Positions 22,201 to 64,000 of a stretch of 64,000 nucleotides of DNA are shown here, in pieces. A model generated the notes under the pieces. That model was not told the origin of the DNA. It worked only from the letters and a program-made list of their open reading frames with translations, and made no database searches. Numbering within the stretch: the stretch's first letter is position 1; the number at the start of each line of letters is the position of its first letter. The DNA is from Branchiostoma floridae (lineage: Eukaryota; Chordata; Leptocardii; Amphioxiformes; Branchiostomatidae), in NCBI RefSeq assembly GCF_000003815.2, contig NC_049989.1, forward strand, positions 9,303,724 to 9,367,723, read 5' to 3'. The position numbers and the translations under genes are program-made.

Positions 22201-25200
22201 ATTGTCTTTCAGCTTCTGCTCGCTGTGGGTCCATGCTTGCGGTAACGGTCATGCTTCCATGTTTCTGGTTGCTCGAAGTAGTGATCTGCCATCTTGTGGG
22301 GTCCAAGGGCCTTGCTCCAAGTACCTGAATGCCATTTTTGGGTTTAGCCCTGAAACAACAACAAAATATACAAAATCTTTCTCACAAAAAGGTGAAGAAA
22401 TATTTACAAATGTTCCTAAAATTTCCACCTTTGAAGCATTCATATGAAAAATTTCTAATCCCATTAAAATCATGTTTAACCAAGGATTCTCTATTGCTCT
22501 TAATTAATTTTTTGATTCTACCTGCTATGGTGTATTTATGGTACCACACTTGCATTATAAATAACACATCCAAGCTTTGCAATAGCATGTTTATAAGATA
22601 ACCACATATCATATAGCTTTTAATAAATTATGTTCTTTAAAAAAATTTCTATTTTTACCCGTTACAGGGTTAGCTTTTAACAGAATTTTTCTTTGACACA
22701 AGTGAATAAAAGCAACAAAATTTGTACACATGAAAAGGACTGGAGATCTTGTGAGCTCAAACAGCAAGTCTTTGATCTCTGACCTTGTTTCCATATCAAA
22801 CAAGGTATCGGTAACCTACACCCTTTGATGTATTTTTCTTTCTCAAAGCAGAGACAAATGTATTAATTTACACTGGCACACTGCTGGAGCTTTACAAAGG
22901 CTTGTTTGCACAAGATTGTTCACATGGATAGAAAGACTCTTTTTAGTATTCTGTACTTGCAACTTGTGGTCCCCATGTGTATCTGCTTTTCTTTTTGTCA
23001 ATGGTCTTGATCAATGCTACATAAGATTATTCATGGCCTAAATCTAAATGTAAGCTTGTACAGTGGAACAGTGGCATTTCATGTGACAGTAAAAACAAAC
23101 TCTCGCTTGTGAAAGCACATGTATACAATGACAGGATAAGCATTTTTCAAAGAGTAAAATCCTGTATTCACATGCAACAACACTACAACCATTACTATTG
23201 GTTGATAAATAGCATTTTTTTTCTTATTTTGTAATTTTTCAAAGAGGATTTACAATGCAGCATTATTTGCTGTATTATCCCTGTGCAATGCACATGTGAC
23301 TTCAAATATCCAAATGACATTCTTGATACGGCCTCAAGTATACCCTTTTTTAATGAGGATCTTAAAGTACCTGCCAGGATGATCAGATATGAACTTACAT
23401 TACTGCAATCAGTTATAAAATTGCTTTGTTCTGACTACATCATGCCTGTGGCATACACCGCGTAAAACAAGATTTATCTACATTTGCAGCTGGAAATTTT
23501 ACAAAAATTCACAAAGGAAATCATGTGTTGGAAACATCAGTGTTGCCGGTTCACAACCCCAACTTCTCTGATTGCCCTCCCAGCTTCAATTATTGATCTA
23601 TGCGAACGCCAGACAGCCATTTTGCCCTTGAGACGACATTGTCAGCCATCATCACTTGGTGGGGCGACACCTCAATGTCAAATAGATTTGACCCTCCTTC
23701 CTTGCCTGTATTTCAGTAGTATCCTCTTGCCCTTTTATCAGCTTTACACACACTTTAGGATGCAGAATCAGGGTATTAAATGTCAGAACCAGAGGTGATT
23801 ACATTTAATACAATTGCAGGCTACTAGCAAGGACCTTTTTGAACCTTCTGAAGATAGGAAATGGGTGATAAGGAATTGCTCAGTCAGTGGCCTAAATTTC
23901 TTATTTCAATGACATGTTATAAATTGTATGGTGAGATCTGTTTATTCATCACTTATATTATAAATTTTGGCAAGGAGATTATGCAGAAAGCAAACTCCAT
24001 GACATTTTAAAACCATGCCTTTGTAAATCCAACGGAAATGGGTGATAAGGAATTGCTCAGTCAGTGGCCTAAATTTCTTATTTCAATGACATGTTATAAA
24101 TTGTATGGTGAGATCTGTTTATTCATCACTTATATTATAAATTTTGGCAAGGAGATTATGCAGAAAGCAAACTCCATGACATTTTAAAACCATGCCTTTG
24201 TAAATCCAACGTTAGATTACACAGTGTCTGCAATCACATCTCAATTTATCTTCCAGATATCATTATCTGTGTTTATCTTATACTCTCAAGGGAATGTTTC
24301 TGACAGTCTTATAACATAATGGATTGGGACCAGAATTTGTCCTTTAGAAATGCTGATTAATGAGCCCCTAATGCTGCAGAGTTTATAACTCCTTTCACTT
24401 TTCATAAACATTCACATATAAAGCAATATGAGGGTAATATATAAGCAACTTCTATTATTTTCAAGTTGAAAAAGGCCTATTAACCATTGTGAATCACAAT
24501 ATTACGTATACAGCAGTTACCAAAACACCTGTTTTTTTGGCATGATGGGTTTAATTTTTGTAAATTGCAAGTGCCCGAGTTGCATAAAAATGATGCTGCT
24601 TTTTAGAATATGGGAAACAGCCTTTTCAGAGTTAGAAACCCCCTAGATTTTTCCTGGTTTGGAAACTTTGGTTTCTCCTTTCCACAGTAAAAGCCTTCTA
24701 CAGCAGTGCTGGACTTGCAGTTCGAGTCCAATACACCTATTGAACTGCATACAGCCTATTACAGGGAGGTAGAATTCAGGGGCCAAGCAATGGCAGCCTC
24801 CTTTTAATAATACAGGAGATCAATATCTACATCACAGATCAAAAGGCTGCTACAGCAGACATCCATTCTGATACTGAACAAATCTGATGACTAAGTTTGA
24901 TCCCAGGATGTAACATACCAGCGTTTCAATAAATGTAGTAATGTATATACTGCTCTGTGATCGGACTTGTTACATGTAATTATTAATTTGTAACCTATCC
25001 CAATGGAAAAGTTATTTTAGTCCCCACACATGCCATAATGAAACATTGGGAAGATAGGAATTCAGGCATACTAAGTGGTATCAAATTTTCTCAGGTACTG
25101 GAGATGAAAAATTTCGTGAACAACAAAGATGGCTACACAATCACTGGCAAAGCATCATGGGTATTGAATGGAAATGCAGGCCATCTCTGTTCCCAGGGAG

Positions 25201-40981: not shown

Positions 40982-43900
40982 TTACTCTACGTAACTACTT
41001 CTCTGCAAGTGTCTAGAACTAAACCCATTCCCAGCCTGCTGCTTTTGACGCTTCATCTTGGCGCGGTGAAATGAAACCGCCACAATGTTAAAAACGACAA
41101 ATGAGAGAAACTGCAGGCCACCCAGTACAAAGAAGTAGTAGTCAAGGTGCCCTTTGTTTATGTTGCCATGGTCAGCGTCCGTGACCCAGTTGAATTTCTT
41201 GACCAGTGCGAGAAGTCCGGAGCCGAGAAGCGATCCGATCCCGGATGTGAAGAAGAAGAGGCCCATGATGATGGAGTGCATGGAGCGAGGCGCAGCAGCA
41301 TACGCAAACTCCAGGCCTGGGTATGGGAAGAATGTGATTTTTCATCATAAAATTGTTGAGGTAGGGATCAAAATCCTTTTTTTTTTTTAAATTGCATCAT
41401 TCCAAAGTATCACATCAAATATTCTACATCAATTTTGCAACTTTTGTAATTGTAGACAGACAAGCCACTGAGTACCTGCCCATCTACAACCTTTGCCATG
41501 AAATATGACCTTTACTACTGTCTTACCTACAGTTACTAATATTAGTAGAAATTCAGGCTTTTGTCTAAAATACCACTCGGGTGACTTAAGGCCTGTGACA
41601 CGCGTGTAGCTATGTTAAAACGCTTAAATCCTCATAACTTTTTGCAGCGTAGTCGTATCAAGCTGCTGCTAAAAAGTATTATGCTTCTAGCTCAAGGAAA
41701 GAAGAAGATAGCTGATATTCACAAACAGATGATATTCACAAAATATATTGCTACTTTTCTAAAATCACTGGTGCAATGCTGCAAATACTAGCATATAAAA
41801 ACCTGGATAAGAGGGTTTGTGTCCACATACCTGCCACACTAGCAAACACCTCGCTGGCCCCTATGAGTGAGTACTGTGGTATCTGCCACCAGATCCACAA
41901 GTCTGCTGCATAAAACGAAGTACCACTGATGTTCTGTGTTATGGTGTGGTTCTGGACTAGCTGCAGTCTGGAACAGGGAAAAATACTGTGTTAGATTCTT
42001 CTCCAACCACTGACACCATCTGTTACACAATTTCAATAAGTTTCCATCATATTTTTATCTTAGTATGTAAAAAAGACTATCTATTAAGAATTGCTGCAAA
42101 CAATTTTTGCCATGGAATAAAGAGACTTTTTTCACACAACCGCTGCTTTATTTCCACCATGTTTCGCTGACCATCTGTCACCTTCCTCATTTTCTGACTG
42201 GTTGAAAGACGGTCACCAAAACGTCAGTGAAAATGAAGCAGTGGTTGTGTATTAAAAAAGACTCAGTCTCTTTATTCGGTGACATACCAACCTGATGAAA
42301 CTATTCAAAGATGTTTTTTGCTATGTTTGAAGTAGATTAGTTAGAGAATACTTTGTCAAACTTTGTACATGTACCTTGTATAAATGATGTACAATGAAGT
42401 TCATGTCTGAGTATATGAACAATCATAAAATGAAATACTGGCTGTGATTGTTACATACTCGAATTTCCATAACATACAGAATATACTAGTAATTACAGTA
42501 TGTAGATAGGTATAGCCAAACGACATACATTTACATTCTTCTTCTTCTGCAAGTCGACCCCACATCTTTCAAGAAGGTGCAAAATCCAAGATTGGGAGAT
42601 AAGCCAGATTTCTCATCTTTTCAATACAGCGTTTTAAACTATATTTGCTCACAAAACTTCCCGAATACATGTAGGTTTGAGAGGGGCAAACTACCTAACT
42701 AACCTGAACTAATAAACTAACCTGTAAGTCTCCAGGCCCCCGGCACACATGACTGCACAGAAGCCAAAGAACATGCCCAGACTGATCCTCTTCAGTACGG
42801 AGAAGTGGCACCCGCGCCGGTCCATCCACGGGTACACCACGCGGTCCATCACGGGAATCAGGATCAACAGGAGCAAAGCGTCAAACAGCGTCAGCCAGGC
42901 TGCTGGCATCTGATTGGATGATGATGTAACAATACTGTAAATTCTTCTTAATTTCGAACAACTTAAATTTGTTTAAGGTATCTTTGCTTTGCGGTTGAAA
43001 CAGCAGTATAGCAGTAACAATTAGGGGTGAGTACCGGTTTTTCATCTTGGACTGGTCCAGAAAAAACAGACCTGAAAAAATCAGTAGACCGGATTTTGGA
43101 CTGATTCGTAAATGAATAGATATTTGACAGGCCTTCATGCGTTTTACAGGTCCAAGAAAATAATGAGAGTGAAGTGAAGGAGAGTTTTTACAAAATTTCT
43201 ACATTCAAACCTTGTCTAAAACAGAGGCAGTTACTGAGTTAGTGTTGTTTACATGAGGATAGGATTTTAAAACTCCATCAAACAGATTCCTTTGTAGCGA
43301 AATGGACCAATATCGGCCATTCACAAGCTTACACAGATTATCAGGTCCAGGTTCAGCTTCAGACCTGGACCTGATCCCATCCTCTGGACCTGGACTGTAC
43401 CTGGACCTGTACCAGTAACCACCCCTAGTAATGATACAAGCCTGAGAAAATGTTTGTGGATGTGATTTAAGGTGAGAGGTCACCAAAAATGTGGACTTCA
43501 AGAAATTGTGAATATTTCAAGATTTACAGTATGGCTTGTGTGTAGGATTTATATGGACAATCTTAGAGCTGTAACAGAATTTGTTTCAAAATACAGAAGG
43601 TAAATAATATTCTACTTGGAGCCAAGATATGAATTTACTTAGTATTTAACTTAAGAGAAAAAAGGGTAAGAAAATGAATACATGTTTTTTGTGCCTTTTC
43701 CACAACATGAAAATTATCAATAATCCTATTTCAGAGCCTTAGGAATCTTTTAACAGTCAGTACTTGTTTTCTTTGCTCATTTTTCCTGTCCTTATGCTGT
43801 TTCAACTGTGTGCGTTTTACCAAAGGAAGTATATAACTTATAAATTCACAATCAATATTAAGCAATGGTGCATACAGAATCCCTGTGCTATGGCAATTTA

Positions 43901-46900
43901 TAACGTCTAAGACCAGATTTACATTTAGACACACCTGCATTTTGACCAGTCCACCACCATTGAGTTCTGAATTGTTCTGGCCAGCAGGTGTGTTCTGTCC
44001 TGGGTCGTTATTCTTGACCGTTATATTTAAGGGTGGGATCCGCATGTGGAGTCCTTGGAGTTGAAAGGTAGTCTGCATCTGTAGGGATACAGATAAACAC
44101 ATTTAACGTGTACATTATCAAAACTTAATGGTCAAACTAAATCATGTTTCTGATTATATGCAAATATAAAAGTATAATTAACATAACAATTGTGCCAAAT
44201 ACAAACTCAAGGGTTCTCATGATATATGTCTTAAAAAATCAGTGTAACAGGATTCCTGCCACCAGGTAATCAAATTATATGTTAAATGTCCGGTGTCACA
44301 GTGACCAGTTTAGAAGCGGGCAACATGGTTCACAGGAAAAGCAAATTGTTTACACAATTGCAAGATATCAATTTGAAATTATTTGCTTTGACAGCTTTCA
44401 AAAAATACACATACAAGTAGGTATTTTTGCAAGCCACTGGTACAGATTTTAAACTGGTTGCCTGAGAACAGATGTACTCTTATTACCTGGTAGTTCTTAA
44501 TCTTAGGCTCAGTCATATAAGAAATATGCATGGTACGAGGGGCGTTCAATAAGTAATAACTCTGACCCACTTTCAGTGGTTTGATCTAGATGAAATTTTG
44601 CACGTGTAATGATTCATATCTCTATAGATTATGTTGCAAAAAAGAGCTCTGAACTAATTGTGGTTACTGATTTACTGGTGTTTGAACTGAGGTAGGTGTG
44701 AAATGGACGAGGTGTGAAATGGAGCCAGTTGAGTGTCGCGCAGTGATCCGGTTTTTGTATTTGAAAGGACGCACACCAAAGGAGACTTTTGATGAAATGA
44801 AAGAAACTTATGGTGATGATGCCCCATCATATGACCTTGTAAAACGCTGGCATCCTGAATTCAAACATGGCCGGAAGTCTGTGGAAACAGCTCCCAGACC
44901 TGGTAGTTCCTCTTCTGCCATTGATGAGGCATCTGTTGGAGGACCAACCTGGGGTGTCCTACAAAAACGGTGTTCAGAGCTGCATCAAACGATGGGAGAA
45001 ATGCATAACTCTGGGTGGTTCCTATGAAGAGAAAGACTGATAACTGTGCCAAGTTTCATCAATCTCCTTCTATGGGAAATGAGTCAGAGTTACTACTTAT
45101 TGAACGCCCCTCGTACACATAAGTTAATTGTCAACACTACCTGGAAGTACACCATCCAATATGGGATGAGCACTATGAAGACAGGCAGGATTTTCCCAAG
45201 AGATTTCACATCCTCGACGTTGGATTCATGGAAGCTCCCACCGTACCGCACTTTCGCCATGTCCAGCCATGTAGGGTTGGGTAAGGGGTCCACCACTGTA
45301 TCAATGTCGCTGTCAAGGGAACAATCACAGATAAGTATCTTATTTACCTTCTCATGCTAGGCTTCAATTTCTTTCTTTTACCTGGAATATTCAAAACGGT
45401 CAAAGTCATTATCTTAATAACGACGAAGCTCAGATCCAGGTAATAAGTTTGTTTGTAAAATTCATATATTCTCAGGATGAAGGGCCCTTTATTATCAAAC
45501 TAGGCTCTTTATATCAAACTAGGCTCTAAAATGCTAAAATGCATTGACTCATCAAACCATAATGATGGGGGAGGGGGTTGAAAAGCCTAAGCCACAATTA
45601 GGACTGTATTTTTCTCAATTCTGCGCAACCTGGTAGCAAGAGGTATAACCAGTCACTATTGCCCTGCAGAAGGTAGCACACTGCAGGAATGTGTTCTTGC
45701 TAAAGTCAAGAGCAATTTTATTTGCAAGACTTTATTATCAATTAATTCAGCAACCTAATGTTCGCGGGGGATTAATGTTCGCAGTTTTCACGGTGACCAC
45801 TTCACCGCGAATTTAAAACCACCACGAACATTTTTTCTATTATGATATTAGATTGCAGTCAATGATGTTACCGCGAACTTAAATCCACCGCGAAAAGTCC
45901 TTTTTCCCGCGAACTTAAATACATTTACAGTATTCACTGACGCACATTTGTATGGCATTTATGTATCACCTTTGTAAATACGAAAAATCTCAACTTCCAC
46001 TAGCACATCATGAAAAGCATTTTCACACCTTGGTTGGCTATAATTTCTTCTCCGCCGCCTCCTGGACCTGCAAGCTTCCAAGATGATTCGGAACACGTTG
46101 GTCAGCACGCTCCCCGACGGTGACCTGCACACGTACGCGGGCTGTCCCAGCACGAACAGAATCAGCGCTACGCCAAGCGACACGGCGGGAATCAGGAAAC
46201 CGTAGAAGAAGCCCATGTTCTGCTGGATGAACGCGACAGCGCCGAGCGACAGTAGCACACCAGCGTTAATCGACCAATAGAACCAGTTGAAGAACATGCG
46301 CATCACTTCTGGCCCCTCATCTTTCACCTGAAATGTGAAAAAAAGCCAAAAAATTTTTCTGAAAATGACATGAATGTAATTAAACAGACTGCTGTACTAC
46401 GGTTAGTGAAAACCTCAGCATAAGGACCACCTGACAATTGAGGTCACTCTTTGGTGGTCTCTATGACTTAGATTATTTCCCAATTTATTTATTTATTGAT
46501 CTTATAGGGTGGTCCCTTCCATTGACTCAAGCATTATGATCATTATCAAAGTATAAGTCAAATCAAAGTATAGTTATTGTCTACATGAGCAAAATTGTGA
46601 TGGTTTGGGTCTGACCACTTTGTCCTGCCCCCCCATACCACGGGATGTCAGGCTGTCAGAAAACAAGGCAAATCAGGTCACAATCTTCCATTCCCATCCA
46701 ACCTCTGACCTCAATCTGACAATCACTACAGACAAGTTTGGCTGTATGTTAAGACAAAGTCCCACAGGCAATGTCCCACAAACATTTGTAGGGTATGAGA
46801 TGTTGGCATAACACACACTTTTCATGATATTTATTTTAAAATCTGCAATCATATATCATACATCTAAAAACTATTTAAAAACCTGCCTATATTCATGACC

Positions 46901-47865
46901 TACAAAGAGGTGAAGACCATTTTTCACATTACAATAAATGGGGCGGGGAAGACTTTAGACTTGATAAACAGGATGGGGTCCACACAGGTCTGGGCTATGC
47001 AGGAAAGAGATAAGATTTTTTTTTAAAACTTGGTCTAGCATATCATCAGCCTAAAGCTCAACTCAAAATCTCACCACTGTGAAGTAATCACATTAGTGTT
47101 CCCTTGATTGCCCTCTCTGAAACCTTGCACAGAGATGGTTCCAATTATTTGTACATTTAATCTTTCTGAGCACTTAACCCCTTTTATATCCATTTGTCCC
47201 GAGAACTATTTCAGTATTTGTCACATGATACAAGCATTGCCTAAACAAAATTGAGGCAATATACATGTATTACATAAGGCAAGAGTAATTTTTAAAAAAT
47301 GCTGACATTACATCAAAATATTATTTTTAACTAAACGTTATAATCTCACAAACTTTATTAAATGAATAACATTAATTCACAAAATAACATTTTTCTTGTA
47401 TTCACAATAATAGAGGTCACTTTAAATCTTAATTTTATGCTTACCTGATCAGCACCAAATGGCGCGATGTTCGCTTTCACCGACCCTGTTCCAATGGCGA
47501 TGACAGCTATGATTGGATAGATCAGAGAGTCGCAGTATTGCTCCTGATTGTCTGTTCCATCTTTCGTGGCGTTTATCGGCTGGATGATCCAGGCTCTACC
47601 TCCGCACAGCTTTCCCCTCATCCCATCATGTCCGAGCATGGGAAGAAACATGATACCAAGAATGTACACGACAAAGCTGATAACGATTGTCCGAAACCTT
47701 CCCAGTACGGTGTCTGCCAGCCAGCCTCCGAACACGCACATCAAGTACGACAGGCCCATGAAGATAAACAGAGCATTAGCAGCATTGTAGGACGTCCACA
47801 GGAAGTCCCCGCGGTTCAGGAACAGGACGAGATTGGCCGTGATGCCATAGAAAGCGATCTTCGAA
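40982..47865 (-). CDS. SLC15A4: SLC15A4-like proton-coupled peptide/histidine transporter, N-terminus in assembly gap
   Basis: Member of the POT/PTR (SLC15) family. Vertebrate SLC15A4 exports histidine and di/tripeptides from endolysosomes using protons and scaffolds TLR7/9 signalling. Visible coding exons on the minus strand: 47445-47865 (5' cut by N), 46029-46327, 45141-45309, 43935-44078, 42722-42909, 41831-41967, 40982-41316. All splice borders and phases agree (0,2,0,0,2,1), giving 563 residues against 577 for human SLC15A4. Motifs: [133 protein letters not shown]. They match SLC15A4/A3 rather than SLC15A1/A2, and the large extracellular domain of A1/A2 is absent. An SLC15A3 assignment is possible, since A3 and A4 are close. 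Confidence 0.93.
43023..43426. mobile_element. GGTCC-rich TIR element in SLC15A4 intron
   Basis: Starts aggggtgagtaccggttttt and ends gtaccagtaaccacccct, an imperfect inverted pair. The interior carries repeated ggtccagg/cctggacc motifs. It lies in the intron between exons 43935-44078 and 42722-42909 and is homologous in inverse orientation to 6831-7219. No ORF of note. Confidence 0.75.
44536..45113 (+). mobile_element. Internally deleted mariner-family transposon
   Basis: A 578-bp element with 31-bp terminal inverted repeats (left end cgaggggcgttcaataagta, 30 of 31 matching) flanked by a TA duplication (44534-44535 and 45114-45115), as expected for Tc1/mariner. It encodes the N-terminal helix-turn-helix region of a mariner transposase in a + strand frame opened at 44698 ([20 protein letters not shown], then [18 protein letters not shown]). 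The end of the transposase is present in another frame at about 44980-45040 ([18 protein letters not shown]). The whole DDD catalytic core is missing, so it cannot transpose by itself. It lies in the SLC15A4 intron between exons 45141-45309 and 43935-44078, 27 bp downstream of the former. Confidence 0.9.
45768..45932. repeat. MITE of the ttcgcggt/accgcgaa family, in SLC15A4 intron
   Basis: Contains gttcgcagttttcacggtga, cttcaccgcgaa, aaaccaccacgaac and ccaccgcgaaaagt, and ends in atttacagta. It matches the element at 62119-62263 along most of its length but lacks a clear left tactgtaaat end. A more degraded copy may lie near 50740-50830. Confidence 0.65.
46328..47444 (-). other. SLC15A4 intron between the first visible exon and VKDEGPE exon
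   Basis: Clean donor (gtaagc) and acceptor (tttcag). AT-rich; no nested gene or clear element recognised. Confidence 0.75.
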
Positions 47866-48169
47866 NNNNNNNNNNNNNNNNNNNNNNNNNNNNNNNNNNN
47901 NNNNNNNNNNNNNNNNNNNNNNNNNNNNNNNNNNNNNNNNNNNNNNNNNNNNNNNNNNNNNNNNNNNNNNNNNNNNNNNNNNNNNNNNNNNNNNNNNNNN
48001 NNNNNNNNNNNNNNNNNNNNNNNNNNNNNNNNNNNNNNNNNNNNNNNNNNNNNNNNNNNNNNNNNNNNNNNNNNNNNNNNNNNNNNNNNNNNNNNNNNNN
48101 NNNNNNNNNNNNNNNNNNNNNNNNNNNNNNNNNNNNNNNNNNNNNNNNNNNNNNNNNNNNNNNNNNNNN
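47866..48169. other. Assembly gap (304 N) at the SLC15A4 start
   Basis: The gap truncates the first coding exon at the sequence encoding S-K-I-A-F-Y-G. Human SLC15A4 has about 50 residues before this point, which would fit inside 304 bases together with the start codon. No coding sequence continues on the far side. Confidence 0.95.
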
Positions 48170-48587
48170 ATGGGATATAACTTATACGTTAAATCCCTGC
48201 AATGGGAATTGACACATCAAACGTTGCAGGAACTCCCTAGCCAGATAGTGGACTAAGAGGGCAGGAATAAAAGGGACACGCCATATCAGTACAATACAAT
48301 GAATGAAATTGTGAAATACGTAACGTTACTAAATTAATTGTCCCCTTCGAAGAGCGCTGACGTTGATACGAAACTCACTTCCGGGTTACTCGGGCCCTCC
48401 AGACCGCTTCTCACCACAGTTTGCAGAAGTGTTCTGAACATTGGGCGCGATTTGTACAATGCCACTCCGCAGAGTGGTGGCCAGGAATGTTTCCCATAGC
48501 ATAGGCTATATGAGACCGTGTATCGTCGCCGTACAGGGTATTTAGATGCGACTTTCGTGTGGGTATGCCCTGTGGCCGGCTATTCCG

Positions 48588-52618: not shown

Positions 52619-55600
52619 CTAAGAAGAATCAAACAGCCATCTTTGTCTGGTTGTCGTTATCCCGTATTCTAGTCTGGGCTTATCTTCATCTGAGTAAATA
52701 TCCGTCATTTCTATAGCTGATTCCTCCAATAGTCTACGTATTTCGCCATTGGTTGCACGTGTCATGCTCTTCCTTACACGCTTTACTACTTTCCATAGCA
52801 AAATTGCCAGGAGGCAAATAGCAGGCACAGCAGTGGAAAACACGAAGTACCAAAACTGTTCTCCAGCCTTCTCAAAGAAGCACTCTATTCCACTGTTGTA
52901 AGATTGTACACTACTAGAAGTTGGCTTTACAGAAGAAATGTTATTTAAATTTGTAGTGTTTGTGACATTCGTACTTGGAATTTCGATTGCAGAGTCTACT
53001 TCATTCTGATCAAATGGTCTGACGCAGTTATGGATGAACACACCAAGGAAGGTAAACAGGGTGATCACAAATGCCCCGCCACAGATAACGATAAAGAGAG
53101 CTTGATTCATCTTCTTTGAAAACTTTCTGACAATTTTTGTGCTCCGAGACTCTGTCTTAAAAGTGAACCTGCACCTCTCGCTGTAGACCCTTTCTTGTTT
53201 ACCGTCTTCTGTTGTTGTCTCCACCACTGAAATGACGAAAAAATCATATTCTGTATTGTCCCGCAGGTGTTCTATTTTTGCCGAGTTGTTATACTGGCAA
53301 TCATGCTCACGTTCTCCCTCTTCGCCTGGTCCCTTGTACTTAACAATGTACCGGTACCTGTAGATATCTCGCTTTTGCTCTTCATCTATAGGCGGTGCCC
53401 AGGAGAATGTTACGCTCTCTATGCCCTCTTTTACCAGCCGGGGATCACGGGGAGGGTGTGGCTTTGTGCGCTCTTCCACAGAGACCACGTGGCTGAATTG
53501 ACCACCACTTTGTTTCTCTCCGCTTCTGGTCTGTGCTGAAATTTTGTATTTTGTTCGCGCCTTTATCGTGCCCTTTTCCCTGAAGGTGTATTTAAATGAC
53601 TGCCATGGCCGTGTTTCAGTGGATTCGTCTGTGATACCAGCGCCTTCATCATTGGGAGGCCCTGTCTTTTCAGCAAAAGTAGCTTTAATGAACCACTCCG
53701 GATCCTCTGCAACTTTCCTTATTTCCACCATATATTCATCTTGTACACCCACAGGGGAGTCCCAAGACACCGCAATACTTTCTGCAAAAGTTTCAACCCG
53801 GAAGCCTTCAGGTTTGTTCGGCTTTGTGTGTATTGTCTTGGTGGCTTCCGAACTTTTGTCATTTTCCTTGAATGTTACGATGGAAATATTGTATTTCTGT
53901 CCGGGGGTTAGATCGCTGAAAGTGTGCAGCAATTCATCGTCTGCTTTTATTTCAGCAGATGGTGATTTGACCACTGCAGTGTCGTCAGAGGAAGGATGTA
54001 TGGTGACTCTATAGATGTCCTTCTCACCTGCAGCTTGCGCCCATTCCAAGGTGACTGCATTTTCACTGACGTTCGTAAATACTATGGAGTTCTCATCTAC
54101 AGCCGCGACTTTTGTTCTCTTCCCTTCAAGTAAAACCACTTCACTGTCAGCCTCCTTGTTTCTTGTGAACATTCCGATTCTATATATTTTACCCGCAACT
54201 AGATTTTCGAATGTGCTTCTGTACACAACAGCTCCATCTAGTGACTCCTTTCCTATGTGTCTTGCAAAACCTTCATTCGGTGATATATTATGTTCGTAGG
54301 ACTCCCAATCTCCCCTGGCATCCTCCCATACTACATCCATACTGTGTTCAGTAACACTGTCTTGTGGAATCTTTACATTTCTCGGAGGAGAGACAATAGT
54401 TCTGAAAGGCATATTTCGTGGTAAACTTTCCATTTCACCACTCACTGTGACCACAGAAACTTCGTACATTCTACCAGGGATAAGAGTAGTGAACGTACGG
54501 GAGTATGGCAGTGACCGAGAATTAGTAGGGATGTTAAGGGGATTTTGTAAGGACATTTCACAGTTCATCTCTCTTATGGAAGCAATGTACGAACTCTTTT
54601 CACCCTTCGCGTCGTGCCATGTTATGGTTAAAGTACTTTCAGTTCGTTCCCTAACACTGATTTGTTCTATGCTACTGACAGTTGTTCTTTTCATGGTGGT
54701 GACAGGATAACTTTTGTCTCCACCGCTATCGGTCCACACGCTTAATTGATACTTGCGACCTGAAGTGAGTTTTTGGAAAGTATACTCCAAAGGTTGTCCT
54801 CTTTCTACCACATCAACAGGATTTTCTACCCCATATTTTGGGGCGATTGAAACATGGTAACGATCCTTGTCACAGTATGGTTCAGGCCACGTGATTCTGA
54901 TGCTATTTTCTTTGACGTCATTGTCTGCGATGATGATTTCTGTGGGTGGGCGAATTTTAGTTCGTACTGTTTCATGGACACATTCACTAAATTCTCCTCC
55001 GCTTTCTGTAGTAACCTCCACTCTATAGAGCCTTCCGGATACAAGGGATTCGAATGTCATCTCTAAGTCCTCATCGGCGTTTCTTACGTCTTCCCGTACA
55101 TATGTACTCCCTCCCTCTTCCCAGATTTTGATGTGGTAGCGATCCTTTACACCCTCTGCGTGCTTCCATATCACTTTGAGAGAGGTCTCGAATGGCTGAG
55201 GAGGTACAAGACTTGGTGGGCCTACAGTCATTCGCTGTTGCCGGACTACCTTGGCACTCTCGACATCTTTGCTTCTGGTGGAAATCTTGATGTCATACAG
55301 CTTTCCTAGCGTAACACCTGTAAAAGTATGAGAGGTTTCGTTGCCACTGGAGATGAGAACAGGAGATTGCAAATTTTCATTGGGGCAAATCTCCAGTGAA
55401 TACTCATCTTTGTCACCACTTGGTTCTAACCATTTCACTATGATTCCCGAGTCCACGGTGGACGTCCTAACATTTACCGGGCGAAGGGGCAGTGTTCTTA
55501 TTAGTCGTGTCTCAGGCTCGCTTGTTTCCCCTCCACTGTTAGTCCTGATGGCAATCTCATATTCCCGACCAGGCACCAAAGCACTGAAGCGATATTCGAG

Positions 55601-58600
55601 AGCAAAAGCGCTGGCAGATACATCCCCTATACAATTTGGCGCTCTGTCTTCAAGGGTAGTGTCAAATATAGCTGCAGTGTACTTATCTTTGTCTCCCTGT
55701 GCTTGTTCCCATGTGATTGTGACTTGTTGATTTTTTACGTTAAATATTCGAAGGCCTTCAGGTTTGTGGACTTTTGTACGATGAGTTGTCGTGGTGGGTT
55801 GACTTTTCCTATCCCCACTTACAGCTACAACAACTAAGCTGTACAGACGGCCCCCTGTTAGGTCATCAACTTGTACCGGGCGTTGGTCGGATAACTCAGT
55901 GACGTTCGTTTTGACGCAAACCTCTCGATGCATAGCACAATATTCATAGTTGTCCACGTCCCCCTCAGCATCATCCCACGTGAATGAAATTGACGAATGA
56001 GTACAATCCGAAACTCTTACTGCTTTGGCACTCGCAACCAATGTTCTTTCTTGTATTGATCTTGGAATCGATGTACTCCCCAAGTCTCCAACATATGTCC
56101 ACATAGAAATTGTGTACAGTCTACCGGGGGTTAGGTTTTCAAATAGGTACTCATGTGACGATGCAGAAATCTCGCGTCGGCTTACTTCGTTTCCATGAGA
56201 AATACTTATCCCGTATTGGTGTACTTCGCTCTCAGGTTCAGGCCAAAAAACACGTAGGCTTTTTCCCTGTACGTCTTCTTTATTGACATGAATTCTGTTT
56301 GGAGGACGCGCCATTGTCCTAAATTCTGTTCGTTCAGGTTTACTTGGGACGTCTCCGCTGATGGTGTAAACAGACACGAAGTGTAATCGTCCGGGGTACA
56401 GGTTGTCGAAGTCATACCTTAATTTCTGTTCTTGATCGATTTCTATTTCATAGACAGACAGTAAATTATTCTGTATCTTCACGGCGTACTTGTCTCTGTC
56501 ACCTTGCGCATGATTCCATTTGATGGTGGCTGTTGTTTCCGTTTTATGCGTTACTGATACATTCTTTGGATGGTCAACCGTCATCCTTAGTGATGCAGTC
56601 ACCGGTTCACTGTTGACATCGTCACTTCGAGTTGTGACATGTACATGGTACATTCTTCCAAATTCCAAACCCGGAAATATTTTCTCCGTAGGCTTTCCCG
56701 CCTGAACTTCACACCAAGTCTGATCAATGGTCTTGCCGGTGTGCTTGTCATGATAAAAAAGATTAAGGATGTATCTATCATTGTCTCCGATTGCTGGCTC
56801 CCAAGCGACAAGAATGCCTGATCCATGCACTGATGCTGTAATGGCTTGCGGGGGACTTGGAAGTGTTCTTCGGTTGACTCCTACTGCCAAACTTTTGTCT
56901 CCGCCGCTCTCGGTGACGACCCTGACTGCATAGAGCCTCCCAGGGGTCAGTTCTGTAAATGTGTGATAGTATGTCGATTCTTCAGTGCTCTTCAAAATTG
57001 AAGAAGGGTTATTTCCATCCTGTGGATCAATGCTGATGTGATAAGTATCCTTGTCTCCTTCTGCTTTGGTCCATGCCACACGAAGGCTATTGGTTTGTCT
57101 GTCTTCCACTTTTAGATTCACTGGCTTGCTGACCATAGTTCTTATCCTTGGCAGTGGCACGTCGTCACTGTGGTCTCCTTCCCGCACGGTTTTTATAGAT
57201 ATGTTGTATTGACGCCCCGGCACAAGATCTTCAAAAACATGCGATATCTGCCCTGTAGTGTGAGTTATCGGCACTTGGTCCTTCGATGTTTGAGAAGATA
57301 TCTGCAGAATATATCTGTCCACCTCACCAGGAGCACATGACCAGCTGACGGCAATGCTTTTCTCCTTAACATCCTTCTCAGCAAAGTTGGTTACTCTCGC
57401 AACTATTGTCCGTTTTTGTTTTGTGACAGGTTCGCTGTGACTGCCGTGGCTTCTCGTTTTGATTGTTACGTCGTAAACCCTCCCTGGAACTAGATCTGTC
57501 CATTCATACCGGTTTGTTTTTGAACTGCAAGTTTTCGGTTCTACCTCTGAGGCTGAATATATGCCTAAGGTATACCCGTCCTTGTCTCCATCAGCGTCTT
57601 CCCACGTCAACCTCAACGCTCCATCTCCCGACTGCTCCAACTGAACGTTCTTCGGCTGCCCGACAAGAGTTTGCTCTGTAACAACACATTCATTACTCTC
57701 CACATCTTCCCGAATTGTGACGATGGTCATTTTGTACAGTCTTCCCGGCACGAGCTCGTTAAACTGATGACATGTGTTACAGTTCTTCGGTACGACAACA
57801 GGTGCAGTTGAGGAGGGATCGTCTTTTGGCTCCAGATATACATGGTATTCATCGACCTCACCGTCAGCAGGATCCCATTGCAGCTTCAACGCAGTCAACG
57901 TTGCTTCGACCGCAGGGTTCTTTGGTTCACCTACTGCTGTCCTTACTGTCAGGACAGTCTCTTCGCTCTTACCATCCCCACTTACTGTGACCCCATGTAT
58001 TGTGTACAGCCTACCAGGGCAGAGTTTAGAAAACGTTTCCTGATACGATGGTTCCGTCTGAAGCTTTCCTTTTGGTTTGGGACAAGTCGTACGTTGTGGC
58101 ACGTCGTCAGGGTTGATGGACAAGGCGTATGCTGTTTTGTCTCCTTCAACATCTGGCCAAGACAACATAATACTCGTCTCACTTTTTCGAAGAATTTTTA
58201 TTGCAGGTTTCATTACTATTGTCTGTGCAGATCTACTCACTTCTTTGCTGTTCATTTCACGTCCATCTACTCTAATGATTGCCCGAAGCACGACAGTATA
58301 GGCCCGTCCTGCGACAAGCTTTTGGAAAGTACATAACGATGAATTGTAGAGAATATTTTTTTCATGCGTTTCAGACAACGAAGACAGCTTAACAACATAA
58401 CCGTCATTTTTGCCATAAGGGTGCTTCCACCCTATTGTTACCTCATGACCTTTTGTTGTGATTTCTACGTCTACAGGTGCATTTGGTAATGTTCTAAAAC
58501 GCACAGTACTTGGAGTACTCTTTTGGTCTCCCCGAACTGACCTAATGGAGATGTCATACCACGACCCAGGGACAAGGTTCGGTATCAACTGTTCGTGCTC

Positions 58601-61455
58601 TTTGCTTTCCTTACTTGTCCATACAATTATTTCCCTTTCTTTTGTTTCTTTGTTCTCTGCTTCTATTTCATAGTCATCCCAGTCTCCTTCCGAATGCTTC
58701 CAAAAGAGATGTATAGAAGTTTCATTCACCGATCGCGAAGACAGTGTTTCATCTACATGTGGCTGTGCAAGCTTCGTACAAAATGTATAAGACGTTTCTG
58801 CACTTTTGTCGGTTCCACTTATCGTTTGTATGGTCAAGATGTAACTCCNNNNNNNNNNNNNNNNNNNNNNNNNNNNNNNNNNNNNNNNNNNNNNNNNNNN
58901 NNNNNNNNNNNNNNNNNNNNNNNNNNNNNNNNNNNNNNNNNNNNNNNNTCTTTCACCAATACCACCCTCTTTGACTATTATCTCGGCAGGTTTCATGATA
59001 TCCATTCGAAAGGTCTTTGTAATGTCGACACTTTCGACTTTCCTACCTTGATGTTGTAAAAGGGTTGTGATTTTGACTTTGTACTTCCTACCTGGCACTA
59101 GATTGTGAAATGTTGTTTGAAGAAAGTCATCCTTTGAAACAAATTTGCTCTGTGATACTCTTTGCCTCTCACTCTGTAACACTCTTACTGTATATCCATC
59201 CTTGTGGCCCTGTGCATGTGACCATGATACCGTCGCCGATGTGAAAGATGTGTCTATTTTGATTTGCTTTGGTGTGTCAAGACATGTCATAACACTCAGT
59301 GGTTGAGATTCTTTGTCTATTGCCCTGCTATGAGCAGTGGCAAGTATTCTATATTCCTCTCCTGGTGTCAAATCTTCAAACGTGTGGTCCATATGCGATT
59401 GTGGGTCTTGTATCTCCACGTTTTTTATCATGTTGGAATCAATAGTGGAGAACAGTGCGATAACGCATTTGTCGCAATCACTCTTAGGAAGTTCGTAGTG
59501 TATGACAATGGACGTTGTGTTTACCTTTGCCTCTGGTGCACTGATTGTTGGAGGAATCAAATCAGTTTGAATGGTTAAGGTCTCTTTTTCACTGAACTGA
59601 TCTCCGCTTTTTGTACTAAGTTCGGCCTTATAGATGCGACCTGAAACAAGACCCTCAAACCTGTGCTTATTGGTGCCTGCTGGAAGCGACTTGTAATGAG
59701 GACTGTTATTCCCATAAGAAAGACCAAGGCGAATGTTATCAAAAGTGCCTGTCTTCGGGGGTTCCCAACTAACTTGGAAGCCTTTGGCAAATGTGTCATT
59801 GATTTGTAGGTTCCTAAGCGGAAGAGGGCGGGTGTAGAAGATCTTTGTTATCGGTGTACTCAATTTTGGTTTTCCATTCAGAACTTCTGATGCCATACTG
59901 AGTTTGTATCGTTGACCTGGGACCAGTGACGAATATGTATAGGTAGGCACATCGTTCCATAGAACGTATGAAGACTTACTTTCATCGGGTTCTATGGACA
60001 GCTTGTATCGGTCTACTTTTCCTTCAGGGTTACACCATCTAACAACCGCGTTGTCGGTACCTATATGTTCGAATATAACCATTTCTGGTGGAAGTGGATC
60101 TGTGACAACCTCTTTGTGGAATGGACTGCCGCTTCTTGATCCACAGCTTTCAGTTTCTAATTCTATTATGTACTTAGTGCCTGGAACGAGATTGTTGTAG
60201 GTCTCTGTGTGCCCTGGCGGATATATAGATAGCTCACCACTGTGAGATGAACAGAGTATGTACCTTTCCACACACCCTCCAGGGTGTTTCCATGATAGTT
60301 GAATATGTTTCGGTCCTGTTTGTACTTTTACATCAGATTCTATTATGGGAAGGACTTTGGTGCTTTGGATTATCTTGTCTGATGTGCTTTCATCGTCTCC
60401 ACTTTTCGAGGAAACAGAAACACTGTACGTTGTACCGGGTATTAGGTCGGTAAGCTCTACTTGCTGATGTTCTGGGGCAATCAGGAAGGGTTCGTATTGA
60501 CAATGACTTTGAGAGCTATAGCGCACGAAGTAACCACTTATTTCGCCGACTACCTTGTCCCATCTAACCATAAAACTGTGTGCAGTGATGCTTTCTTTGA
60601 TGACTGTTATGTTTTGAGGTGGCGGCACTGTCGTTCTTACAATCAAGACGCAGCGTTCACATTCTGCATCTTCGTAGATTGTAATGGCTGACACTTTATA
60701 TTCTTTACCTGGAACGAGGTTTTGAAACATATGCTGAAGCCTATTCTCATGGCATGGAATTTCTACATCAGATTCACCCTCACTTGGGCTTAGTGAAAGA
60801 ACGTACTTTTCTTTCTCGCCCTTTACATGTTCCCAAGAAATTGTGATAGAAGTTTCCGTCTTTTCGCACAGTTTTAGGTCAGGAGAACAAACTTTGGTCC
60901 TCTGTGTTATTTCAACCATCTCACTGCTTAGGTCTTGAAAATGAGATGAAATTGTTATTCTGTGTAGACTGCCCGGGTTAGTCGAAAGGGAATCAAATAC
61001 ACATTCGATACTGTCTTTGCCTTTAGTCTGGCTTTGTTCTGGCTTTTGGTTGTCACTCCTTGATTTGGTTTGGTCTTTACACCATATGTCTACTTTGTAA
61101 CAATCTATATTTCCAACAGGCGGTTGCCAAGCGACTGTTATGGAATAAGGGCTACATGAATTTACGTGAAAACCTTCAGGACGGGCAGGGCATGTAGAGG
61201 CAGTAGTTTTACATGGTCGACTTTCAACTTCTCTCCCGTCCTCAAATGTACGTTTTACTATTACACTTACATCATAACTAGTACCAGGGTCAAGCTCCTT
61301 AAAAACAAACGCTAAGTCTTTGTCTACTGGTATCGGGTCATGGCCTGTAATCTGTGCTAGGTACGTGACGTTATTGTCGATAGCAGCTGCCCATTTTACC
61401 TTGATGGTGCTTGTCGTTTGTTCAGTTACAGAGATCGATGTAATAGGACGAGGTC
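52619..61455 (-). CDS. Single 8.8-kb exon: about 30 FN3 domains, two hydrophobic segments, short tail
   Basis: Exon begins after acceptor tgttccag at 61456 (first residues after the split codon: PRPITSISVTEQ) and runs open to TAG 52619-52621, 2944 residues including 34 unknown. I count about 30 PG-[RKT]-x-Y signatures, one per FN3 domain of about 85-100 residues. After the last domain comes a basic segment (KIVRKFSKKMNQ), hydrophobic segment 1 (53033-53101, ALFIVICGGAFVITLFTFLG), a 59-residue loop with three N-glycosylation sequons and two cysteines (52856-53032), hydrophobic segment 2 (52784-52855), then KRVRKSMTR and a tail with EIRRLL, an acidic dileucine-type sorting motif. The ATG at 61513 is intronic and not the start. 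Plus-strand ORFs across this span are shadows. Confidence 0.92.
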
Positions 61456-63539
61456 CTGGAACACACAAAACAGTTTTGACCATCAAACACCTCACACTGG
61501 AAATAGTGTCCATGAAATTTCAAGGCGGAAAATGGGAAACACATTCCACACCTATTTAATCACTCACCCACAAAAGCGCGCGAAAAGTCTTTCTCACTTT
61601 CGTTTCAACGCCATTTGCTTCAGCAGAATAGCACTCATCTCAGCAGACGTTGCAATCAATTACAAGTTTACTGGTAGTAGTAGATGACAGCAATGGCAGA
61701 ACAATTAGAAGTGAACAACGGCTACTGTAAGAACGGAAAGCCCATCAAAATATGTAAGTGGCATTTTGCTCCAATACAGCTTGTCATATTTCATTTAATT
61801 TACTAACTTGTTGCACAGAGTATTGACGTTCTTTTTCCCTCTGTTCCTCCCCATCCTAACACAGCAACACGGATGGTGTAGTTGGACGCAGGACGAAGAT
61901 TCTCAAATCGTTTTGTGCTTGTTCCACCTAGTAGGTCATCTGACTTTTTCCATGTTTCATTTGGACCAGATGCCGAAATGTGGACGCGAACTTCAGGATC
62001 AGACAATGGCCACCAGCCTATAATAATTAAAATGGGACAATGATTGAGCAAGTTGCTATCAGCGTGATATGAATTGCTTAATACGGTGTTGCCGTATGTA
62101 TCATGTCTATGTTCCAAATACTGTAAATGCAGACTTTTGCGGTGGTTTAATGTTCGCGGTTTTCGTGGTGACCGCTTCACCGCGAACTTAAAACCACCGC
62201 GAAAAGTTATTTATCCCGCTACCGCGAAATTGAATCCCCTGGAACTTAAATGTATTTACAGTACCTTTTTCAGAACAATAAGTCTTATGACATGAATGGC
62301 ATCTGAAAGTACAATAGTTCTGTGCCAACGTTTTCCACAGAATGTGTGTACTGCAACGACAACTCCATACCTGTTACAGCCGTCCAACTGATTGAGATGG
62401 ATGTTGTGCCATAGGAAGTCACACAGAGTCCAGTTACCGTTGGAATCTCTGAAAGCGAAAGAAGAAATACTATTATGAATACTGACATATATATATCTAT
62501 AATGTACACTTTATTTTTTTCTGCGTCATATATCTCAAAGTGAGAGGTCTGTTTATGCCATATTGTAATGACTATCCGTATACAATTTGATGACCAAGTA
62601 GCAATATAATCATCGTACATCATCAGTGCACGTTTACACAGGTCCTGTATCAGAAGGTCCTCTTAATTTCTCTATTAGTGAGAGGATGATACTAATGGTG
62701 ATGACCGTACTTGATTAATTATAACAGATCATCGACTTGGAAACACTGGACGCTGGACTGGACAAATGTCATGGAAAATAATGCTCTTTGATAACCTGTT
62801 GTAACATTTTTTGATATGAATGAGCTCAGCACTGGTTCTTCCTGAGATCCAGCCATTGACATGACGGTAATTGTATACTTTGAGTTCGGCATTAAATCAT
62901 GAAATACACGTGAGTAGAGGATTCCTTTTCCTTCTTTGGTCCAAACGTCAAGGGTTTCGTTATACTGGGCTCGGGTCCGGCTAGCAGCAATACAATTCAA
63001 TCTGTATCCAATGATTTCTGTTGGGTCTGGCGGAGGTTGCCATGATACCCTGACAGAATTACTGGTGACTTAATCAGTAGAAATGCTCGTGATGGTTTGT
63101 GGCTCTGAAATAAAATTTTAAGTGATCGATGAGACCTGAGAAGATTGTAATACTTCTGGTTACCTTTTTCAAACGCATAGCATGGATCATTGACTCTTTT
63201 AGAATCCTAGAATACTTTGAGGACCGATACATAAACTGGATAATTCATCTGGACAATATTTATAAGTGTGCAGAATTGAAATAAAGACCAAGGAAGTGAC
63301 GAGGGTAGTATGCAGTTGGAATGTATGTGATAGCTTTATGGTCGTGATATATAGAAAGAATTGTTGCAGTGTAAGGAAATGTACATGTCTTACTTGTTAC
63401 AACGGAGCAAATATTCTGCTACAATCAGAGTTAGTTTATTGGCTTCATTTTACCATTACAAATTAACCAATTTACAGATTTGGGGGGATGGTCGACTTCC
63501 CATACTTAAAAAGACAACGTTGTCATGGACTCACTCACC
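52619..63539 (-). CDS. Giant fibronectin type III repeat membrane protein, 5' end beyond window
   Basis: Visible coding exons on the minus strand: 62796-63104, 62371-62448, 61808-62017 and 52619-61455, all joined in phase 1 with AG/GT borders. A further minisatellite exon ending at 63539 probably precedes them. Together they encode about 32 FN3 domains followed by two hydrophobic segments and a 54-residue tail. The domains share W-x-x-A-x-GD-K-D-x-Y early and L-x-PGRLY-x-V-x-V-x-T-x-SG late, a style like the FN3 ectodomains of R3-type receptor tyrosine phosphatases (PTPRB, PTPRQ), but no phosphatase domain follows. No known orthologue recognised. The role is unknown; FN3 arrays usually serve adhesion or act as spacers. 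One exon carries an in-frame stop (63070-63072) and the large exon carries a 100-N gap. Confidence 0.88.
58849..58948. other. Assembly gap (100 N) inside the FN3 array
   Basis: A round 100-base gap falls in the tenth FN3 domain of the large exon. The frame happens to continue across it. The 34 unknown residues are about 15 fewer than a normal domain needs between the flanking sequences (EGGIGER and SYILTIQT), so 100 is probably a placeholder and the true number of domains may be larger. Confidence 0.9.
61808..62448 (-). CDS. FN3 domain split over two exons
   Basis: Exons 62371-62448 (EIPTVTGLCVTSYGTTSISI then SWTAVT) and 61808-62017 (WWPLSDPEVRVHISASG ending GKRTSILCAT) together make one FN3 domain, with a phase 1 intron between the B and C strand regions. 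The donor of the second exon is gttagt at 61807. The intron holds the MITE at 62119-62263. These split domains contrast with the uninterrupted array downstream. Confidence 0.85.
62119..62263. repeat. MITE with tactgtaaat ends (family shared with 45768-45932)
   Basis: Ends are tactgtaaat (62119-62128) and atttacagta (62254-62263), a perfect 10-bp inverted pair. Inside, ttcgcggttttcgtggtga is followed by gcttcaccgcgaacttaaa and aaccaccgcgaa, again inverted. 145 bp. It lies in an intron of the FN3 gene. Confidence 0.8.
62796..63104 (-). pseudogene. FN3 exon with an in-frame stop codon
   Basis: Exon with acceptor atttcag at 63105 and donor cag/gttatc at 62795, phase 1 at both ends like its neighbours. 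It reads EPQTITSISTD, then TAA (63070-63072), then VTSNSVRVSWQPPPDPTEII and on through PNSKYTITVMSMAGS to NVTT, a clean FN3 domain. One base change would explain the stop, so it may be a sequencing error, a null allele, or true gene decay. It is marked as broken only for this exon, since the rest of the gene is open. Confidence 0.7.
63105..63538 (-). other. Intron of the FN3 gene
   Basis: Lies between the putative minisatellite exon (donor ctag/gtgagtgag) and the FN3 exon at 63104. No other features seen. Confidence 0.6.
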
Positions 63540-64000
63540 TAGACTTGATCCCATCCTTGTCCTAGGTGATCTCTCCACTGTCCCAGGTGATATTTCCCTT
63601 GTTCCATGTGATCTCTCTACTGTCCCAGGTGATCTCTCTACTATTCCAGGTGATCTCTCTACTGTCCCAGGTGATCTCTCTACTGTCCCAGGTGATCTCT
63701 CTACTGTCCCAGGTGATCTCTCTACTGTCCCAGGTGATCTCTCTACTGTCCCAGGTGATCTCTCTACTGTCCCAGGTGATCTTTCCCTTGTTCCATGTGA
63801 TCTCTCTACTGTTCCAGGTGATCTCTCTACTATTCCAGGTGATCTCTCTACTGTCCCAGGTGATCTCTCTACTGTCCCAGGTGATCTCTCTACTGTCCCA
63901 GGTGATCTCTCTACTGTCCCAGGTGATCTCTCTACTGTCCCAGGTGATCTCTCTACTATCCCAGGTGATCTCTCTACTGTCCCAGGTGATCTCTCTACGT
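63539..64000 (-). CDS. Probable exon encoding a PGTVERS heptad repeat (21-bp minisatellite)
   Basis: About 21 units of 21 bp run to the window edge (plus-strand unit ggtgatctctctactgtccca, units in register from 63544). On the minus strand each unit reads P-G-T-V-E-R-S with no stop in this frame over 460 bases, ending in PRTRMGSSL and a strong donor (ctag/gtgagtgag at 63539/63538). The exon ends in phase 1, exactly what the FN3 exon at 63104 needs. It would form a low-complexity hydrophilic stalk N-terminal to the FN3 domains. Two other frames across the units are also partly open (WDSREIT ends in a stop at the donor side), so coding is likely but not proven. The last three bases of the window deviate from the unit. 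Confidence 0.5.
63544..64000. repeat. 21-bp minisatellite with a nine-unit higher-order repeat
   Basis: Units start at 63565 and every 21 bases after that; 63544-63564 is a diverged first unit. Variant units (tttcccttgttcca, then tgtgatctc, then ctattcca) occur in the same order starting at 63586 and at 63775, 189 bases apart, followed each time by near-identical canonical units. The array continues beyond the right edge. Confidence 0.95.

Follow-up and report, generated by a model that had tools for sequence, protein, structure and literature searches.

Introduction

MUC1 is a coding minisatellite. So, reportedly, is the zinc-finger array of Prdm9 (PMC3890296). The array analysed here would share with both a tandem exonic unit of a length divisible by three; the proteins differ. 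The zebrafish NLR-B30.2 family carries N-terminal peptide repeats of about 30 residues (PMC4852459). The present family would be similar to it in having tandem peptide repeats N-terminal in NACHT proteins and shuffled among members, but its repeats are 7 residues long, and the C-terminal part encoded in the present window is FN3, not NACHT.

In amphioxus, PMC2575513 gives about 21 domain combinations with NACHT, and neither "fibronectin" nor "FN3" appears as a word in its main text. TRADD-N protein expansions in Branchiostoma are described with DED-TRADD-N and WD40 propellers (PMC8195603). In contrast to those, two FN3 domains here precede a domain with a weak resemblance to TRADD-like_N, and the linker is a regular array of 21 bp, or one heptad, per unit. 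No heptad minisatellite in such a family was described among the matches listed in a search of literature titles and abstract openings, a scope that holds few subscription journals.

The window is a stretch of 64,000 nucleotides of the Branchiostoma floridae genome (C11:9303724-9367723, in a genome of 513,431,437 bases and 431 contigs). A 21-bp minisatellite lies at its end. Judging from its sequence and from that of two paralogous loci, it is quite probably a coding exon, with (PGTVERS)n heptads forming a spacer between an N-terminal module and a paralog-specific C-terminal module.

Structure and Extent of the Array

Tandem Repeats Finder reported a single array at 63558-63998, with period 21, 21.0 copies, 91% matches and a score of 735. 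The array and its downstream end comprise the following features, where C3 denotes a contig with a paralogous locus:

63558..63998, minus strand: minisatellite array of 21 units of 21 bp, reading (VERSPGT)n, with a weak 9-unit higher-order period

63539..63557, minus strand: stretch between the last unit and the donor, presumed to close the array exon on its 3' side; encodes RMGSSL with one base left over (phase 1) and resembles the C3 exon end

63533..63538, minus strand: putative splice donor GTGAGT, identified by its donor-matrix score and its likeness to the C3 donor

When split on the minus strand, the array gave 21 full units, which fell into 8 types; the consensus GTAGAGAGATCACCTGGGACA (VERSPGT) accounted for 12 of the units. 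With up to three mismatches allowed, the consensus occurred 19 times in the window, always within the array, while the mean in shuffled controls (n = 100) was 0; two of the 21 units diverge more. These results confirmed the tandem array of 21-bp units that an earlier, sequence-only reading of the window had reported. Unit pairs nine apart were the most alike (7 of 12 identical; mean identity 0.956 versus 0.905-0.929 for the other spacings from 1 to 13), a pattern that would be expected of turnover by unequal exchange. An assembly gap of 1566 bases (L003:1725-3290) starts at window position 64001, directly after the array. The array is therefore cut off by the assembly, and 21 units is a lower bound.

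The translation of the array is hydrophilic and basic, a composition from which a spacer function of the heptads is predicted. When translated, the array gave Pfam matches to MINT_RAM7, a grass antifreeze roll and other families, which were rejected because all lay below their cut-offs.

The same earlier reading placed a consensus splice donor at the end of the array, and this held. The stretch ends CTAG/GTGAGT at 63539/63538, and on a donor matrix this site ranks in the top 0.2% of the 7541 GT sites of the window. The sequence AGGTGAGT occurs once in the window, at this donor, with 2.0 occurrences expected by chance. When the donor segment of the C3 array exon was compared with the same 7541 GT sites, the best match was 63538 (16 of 22 bases), followed by three sites with 15. 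This sequence similarity indicates that the 63538 donor is homologous to the donor of the C3 array exon. The acceptor and leader of the C11 exon would fall within or past the assembly gap.

Upstream of the array on the same strand follow the gap, a stretch of inverted repeats (13 pairs), another gap, and then an exon encoding a ~105-residue domain and two FN3 exons. Pfam FN3 matched the latter two with E 1.1e-4, below the cut-off, and 1.9e-7. The inverted repeats of that stretch are nested (L003:3469-4792) and possibly represent mobile-element sequence.

Elsewhere in the window, a 177-bp unit occurs twice in tandem (23857-24211; 100% matches), through either a recent duplication or an assembly artefact. 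An ORF on the plus strand (44686-45027) resembles what we take to be a candidate mariner-type transposase N-terminus. ORF pieces on the minus strand at about 41000-48190, with an N gap at 47866-48169, may represent a candidate SLC15-type peptide transporter.

Paralogous Loci

A DNA search of the genome with the C11 array found one further site, on C18. The C18 array in turn matched four other sites, two of which were the C11 array again (three matches) and two of which lay on C3. The C11, C18 and C3 loci (C3:1643735-1673734 for the last) have a common order, in which two FN3 exons and the exon of the ~105-residue domain are followed by a 21-bp array; the frame of the array is the same at all three. 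The array heptads read PGTTEKS at C18 and PGTTEMS at C3. Compared with C11, identities at C18 were 43/81 in the first FN3 domain, 56/101 in the second and 47/104 in the third domain; at C3, they were 53% and 55% for the two FN3 exons and 69% for the domain exon. Array length was about 11 heptads at both C18 and C3 and at least 21 at C11.

The C18 array sits in a single ORF of 602 aa and continues in frame into a coiled coil. Further downstream on the same strand lie NACHT (E 1.9e-31) and LRR_6 (E 3.4e-05) sequences, which may be transcribed together with the array. The coiled-coil exon of C3 has 45% identity with the C18 coiled coil over 273 columns. As judged from its splice sites, the C3 array exon would run from an acceptor AAAG/GTATAGGG to a donor TTTAG/GTGAGT and be symmetric, with phase 1 at both ends. 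Its flanking exons fit by eye: a phase-1 GTAAGT could close the preceding exon, and a phase-1 acceptor is available to open the coil exon. The array exons of C18 and C3 share the leader IGKRLP. Alternatively, the C18 coil could begin beyond the array, at acceptor 4609, which scores like the preceding acceptor but is in phase 0.

Three sequences at or near these loci, or similar to their arrays, were observed in addition. The coiled-coil ORF adjoining the C18 array contains a 234-bp (78-residue) internal repeat (L006:4954-5408). At the equivalent of L016:5203-8018 on C3, between the domain exon and the array exon on the minus strand, ORFs resemble what is presumably a candidate Ty3-type retrotransposon polyprotein. 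At C3:17963714 (L019:1-288), there is an array of similar sequence with period 20 and 14.4 copies; it was left out of the family, given its period and the lack of any FN3 or domain exon match in the 20 kb analysed.

For the domain of about 105 residues, the Pfam family PF20694 (TRADD-N) matched one of the three members with 13.9 bits (E 0.049), where the cut-off is 23.7. The other two members drew similar scores from unrelated families, and a profile of all three, compared with solved structures, found no TRADD structure. With PF20694 below its curated cut-off and no match to a solved TRADD, the TRADD-N label was not adopted.

Reading Frame and Substitution Pattern

The sequence-only reading argued from a unit length divisible by three and from an open minus-strand frame. 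Both were found, with no stop in the VERSPGT frame in any of the 21 units, but the argument is a weak one, since at period 21 an open unit remains open. The consensus is open in four of its six frames, two of which gain one stop over the whole array; VERSPGT (minus) and VPGDLST (plus) are stop-free throughout. Among random 21-mer tandems of the same composition (n = 20,000), at least four frames were open in 87.5%. With several frames open and such openness expected by chance, the open frame alone was rejected as proof of coding.

In the repeat units alone, no sense frame other than the VERSPGT-type one lacks stops at C11, C18 and C3 alike, and one antisense frame is likewise stop-free in all three arrays. 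Once the leader and tail of the C18 and C3 exons are included, the VERSPGT-type frame is the only one of six that is stop-free in all three arrays. The chance of finding no stop, given the observed number of variants, was 0.74 for C11, 0.47 for C3 and 1.0 for C18; the shared stop-free frame is suggestive but falls short of significance. Conservation of the unit between loci, compared by eye, does not single out the VERSPGT frame, other readings changing about as little.

A preference of substitutions between units for synonymous sites, which had been proposed as a test, was not borne out in the C11 array: three of nine distinct variants were synonymous, with 2.8 expected (P = 0.60). There was no synonymous excess in another register of the same array (3/8, P 0.47) or at the paralog arrays (C3, 5/17, P 0.48; C18, 0/1, its single variant being nonsynonymous).

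Downstream FN3 Exons and an In-Frame Stop Codon

Downstream of the donor, the following features were located:

62796..63104, minus strand: next exon, an FN3 domain, phase 1 in and out, with predicted borders; PF00041 matches with E 3.5e-08 on 62722-63069

63070..63072, minus strand: in-frame TAA in this FN3 exon, in the frame that continues from the array when 63539 is joined to 63104

62371..62448, minus strand: putative exon placed by eye, first part of an FN3 domain; no Pfam match on its ORF

61808..62017, minus strand: putative exon, second part of the FN3 domain begun in 62371..62448; weak Pfam match with E 0.04, below the cut-off

52619..61455, minus strand: giant exon with a predicted start; its 29 FN3 stretches precede two hydrophobic segments and a stop, and it contains a 100-base N run

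The predicted exons 62796-63104, 62371-62448, 61808-62017 and 52619-61455 were joined in phase 1. Their splice sites vary in strength, three of the seven scored reaching only the top 13-16%. The giant exon encodes 2944 residues. The minus-strand ORF to which it belongs (52619-61519; 2966 codons, 29 FN3 stretches) crosses the N run at 58849-58948, and because the length of this run is not a multiple of three, continuity of the ORF across it is nominal.

The earlier claim that the phase of the array exon matches that of the next FN3 exon was correct as to phase, which is 1 at both 63539 and 63104. The joined frame, however, reads EPQTITSISTD, then reaches the TAA (63072-63070), which had been overlooked, and resumes as VTSNSVRVSW. 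With this stop eleven codons in, the assembled array is not continuous with the FN3 chain. The residues before the TAA align by eye, without a gap, with the beginning of the giant exon's first FN3 domain, and exon 62796-63104 therefore looks as if it was once coding across the stop. The TAA may mean that the product is truncated, that the assembled haplotype carries a nonsense allele or an error, that a different exon follows the array exon, or that the gene is decaying.

Discussion

The idea that the array encodes heptads is strongly supported because two paralogous loci carry a repeat of this kind at the corresponding position and in the same frame. The shared position and donor across loci are stronger support for coding than the shared open frame. 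Of the PGTVERS stalk proposed in the sequence-only reading, the heptad coding thus gains from paralogs with an array in the same place and frame and from the matching donor, while the continuity of the C11 copy with what follows is broken by the TAA.

Under this explanation, a coding exon would have evolved by tandem duplication of a 21-bp unit and would be transcribed and spliced. The encoded spacer would link an N-terminal module, FN3-FN3 with the ~105-residue domain, to a paralog-dependent C-terminal module. It might act as a flexible or extended linker that sets the distance between the modules, and its length would change by unequal exchange.

An appreciable, if smaller, chance is that the array was ancestrally a coding exon and that its C11 copy is decaying, being now intronic or part of a pseudogene, an account that overlaps with the preferred explanation as regards the family. 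The downstream in-frame TAA at 63072-63070 fits such decay, as do the gaps and inverted repeats (L003:3469-4792) between the domain exon and the array. The missing synonymous excess fits it as well, and the near-identical units would then reflect a recent expansion without constraint. However, all 21 units keep the frame, the donor is strong and like the C3 donor, and the downstream FN3 exons are otherwise open, the giant exon of 2944 residues included.

It is also possible, though we are doubtful, that the C11 sequence holds two separate genes, one with FN3-FN3-domain-array and the other a giant FN3 gene. The array exon would then end the first gene or join an unrecognised exon, and the phase match at 63104 would be incidental. 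At C18 and C3 the array precedes a coiled coil, not FN3, and at C11 the TAA closes the frame after eleven codons, both of which point to separate genes. Against them, the donor is strong and in phase 1, an FN3 exon of the same phase starts 434 bases on, and no coiled-coil relative was seen by eye in the 434-base interval between the donor and 63104.

It is improbable that the array is an ordinary non-coding minisatellite in a spliced-out intron with a coincidental open frame and donor: four of six frames are open and random 21-mer tandems usually keep several open, an antisense frame, too, stays open throughout the three arrays, the neighbouring phase-1 exons could join without the array, and a similar array of period 20 exists at another place, with no homologous exons in the 20 kb analysed, but position, period and frame are common to the paralogs, the donor matches, and the C18 array is continuous with the coiled-coil ORF.

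If the array is a coding spacer exon, a more tentative extension is that the loci form a small immune-receptor-like family in which the minisatellite exon serves as a length-adjustable stalk. A fixed FN3-FN3-adaptor module might then be combined with interchangeable C-terminal modules swapped at phase-1 introns. Conceivably, these modules would be a coiled coil with NACHT-LRR at one locus and an FN3 chain with membrane segments at another, although we regard this joint claim as speculative.

Should the coding explanation be true, a hypermutable repeat would set the spacing of modules in receptor-like proteins, and the length of the spacer could differ between paralogs and perhaps between animals.
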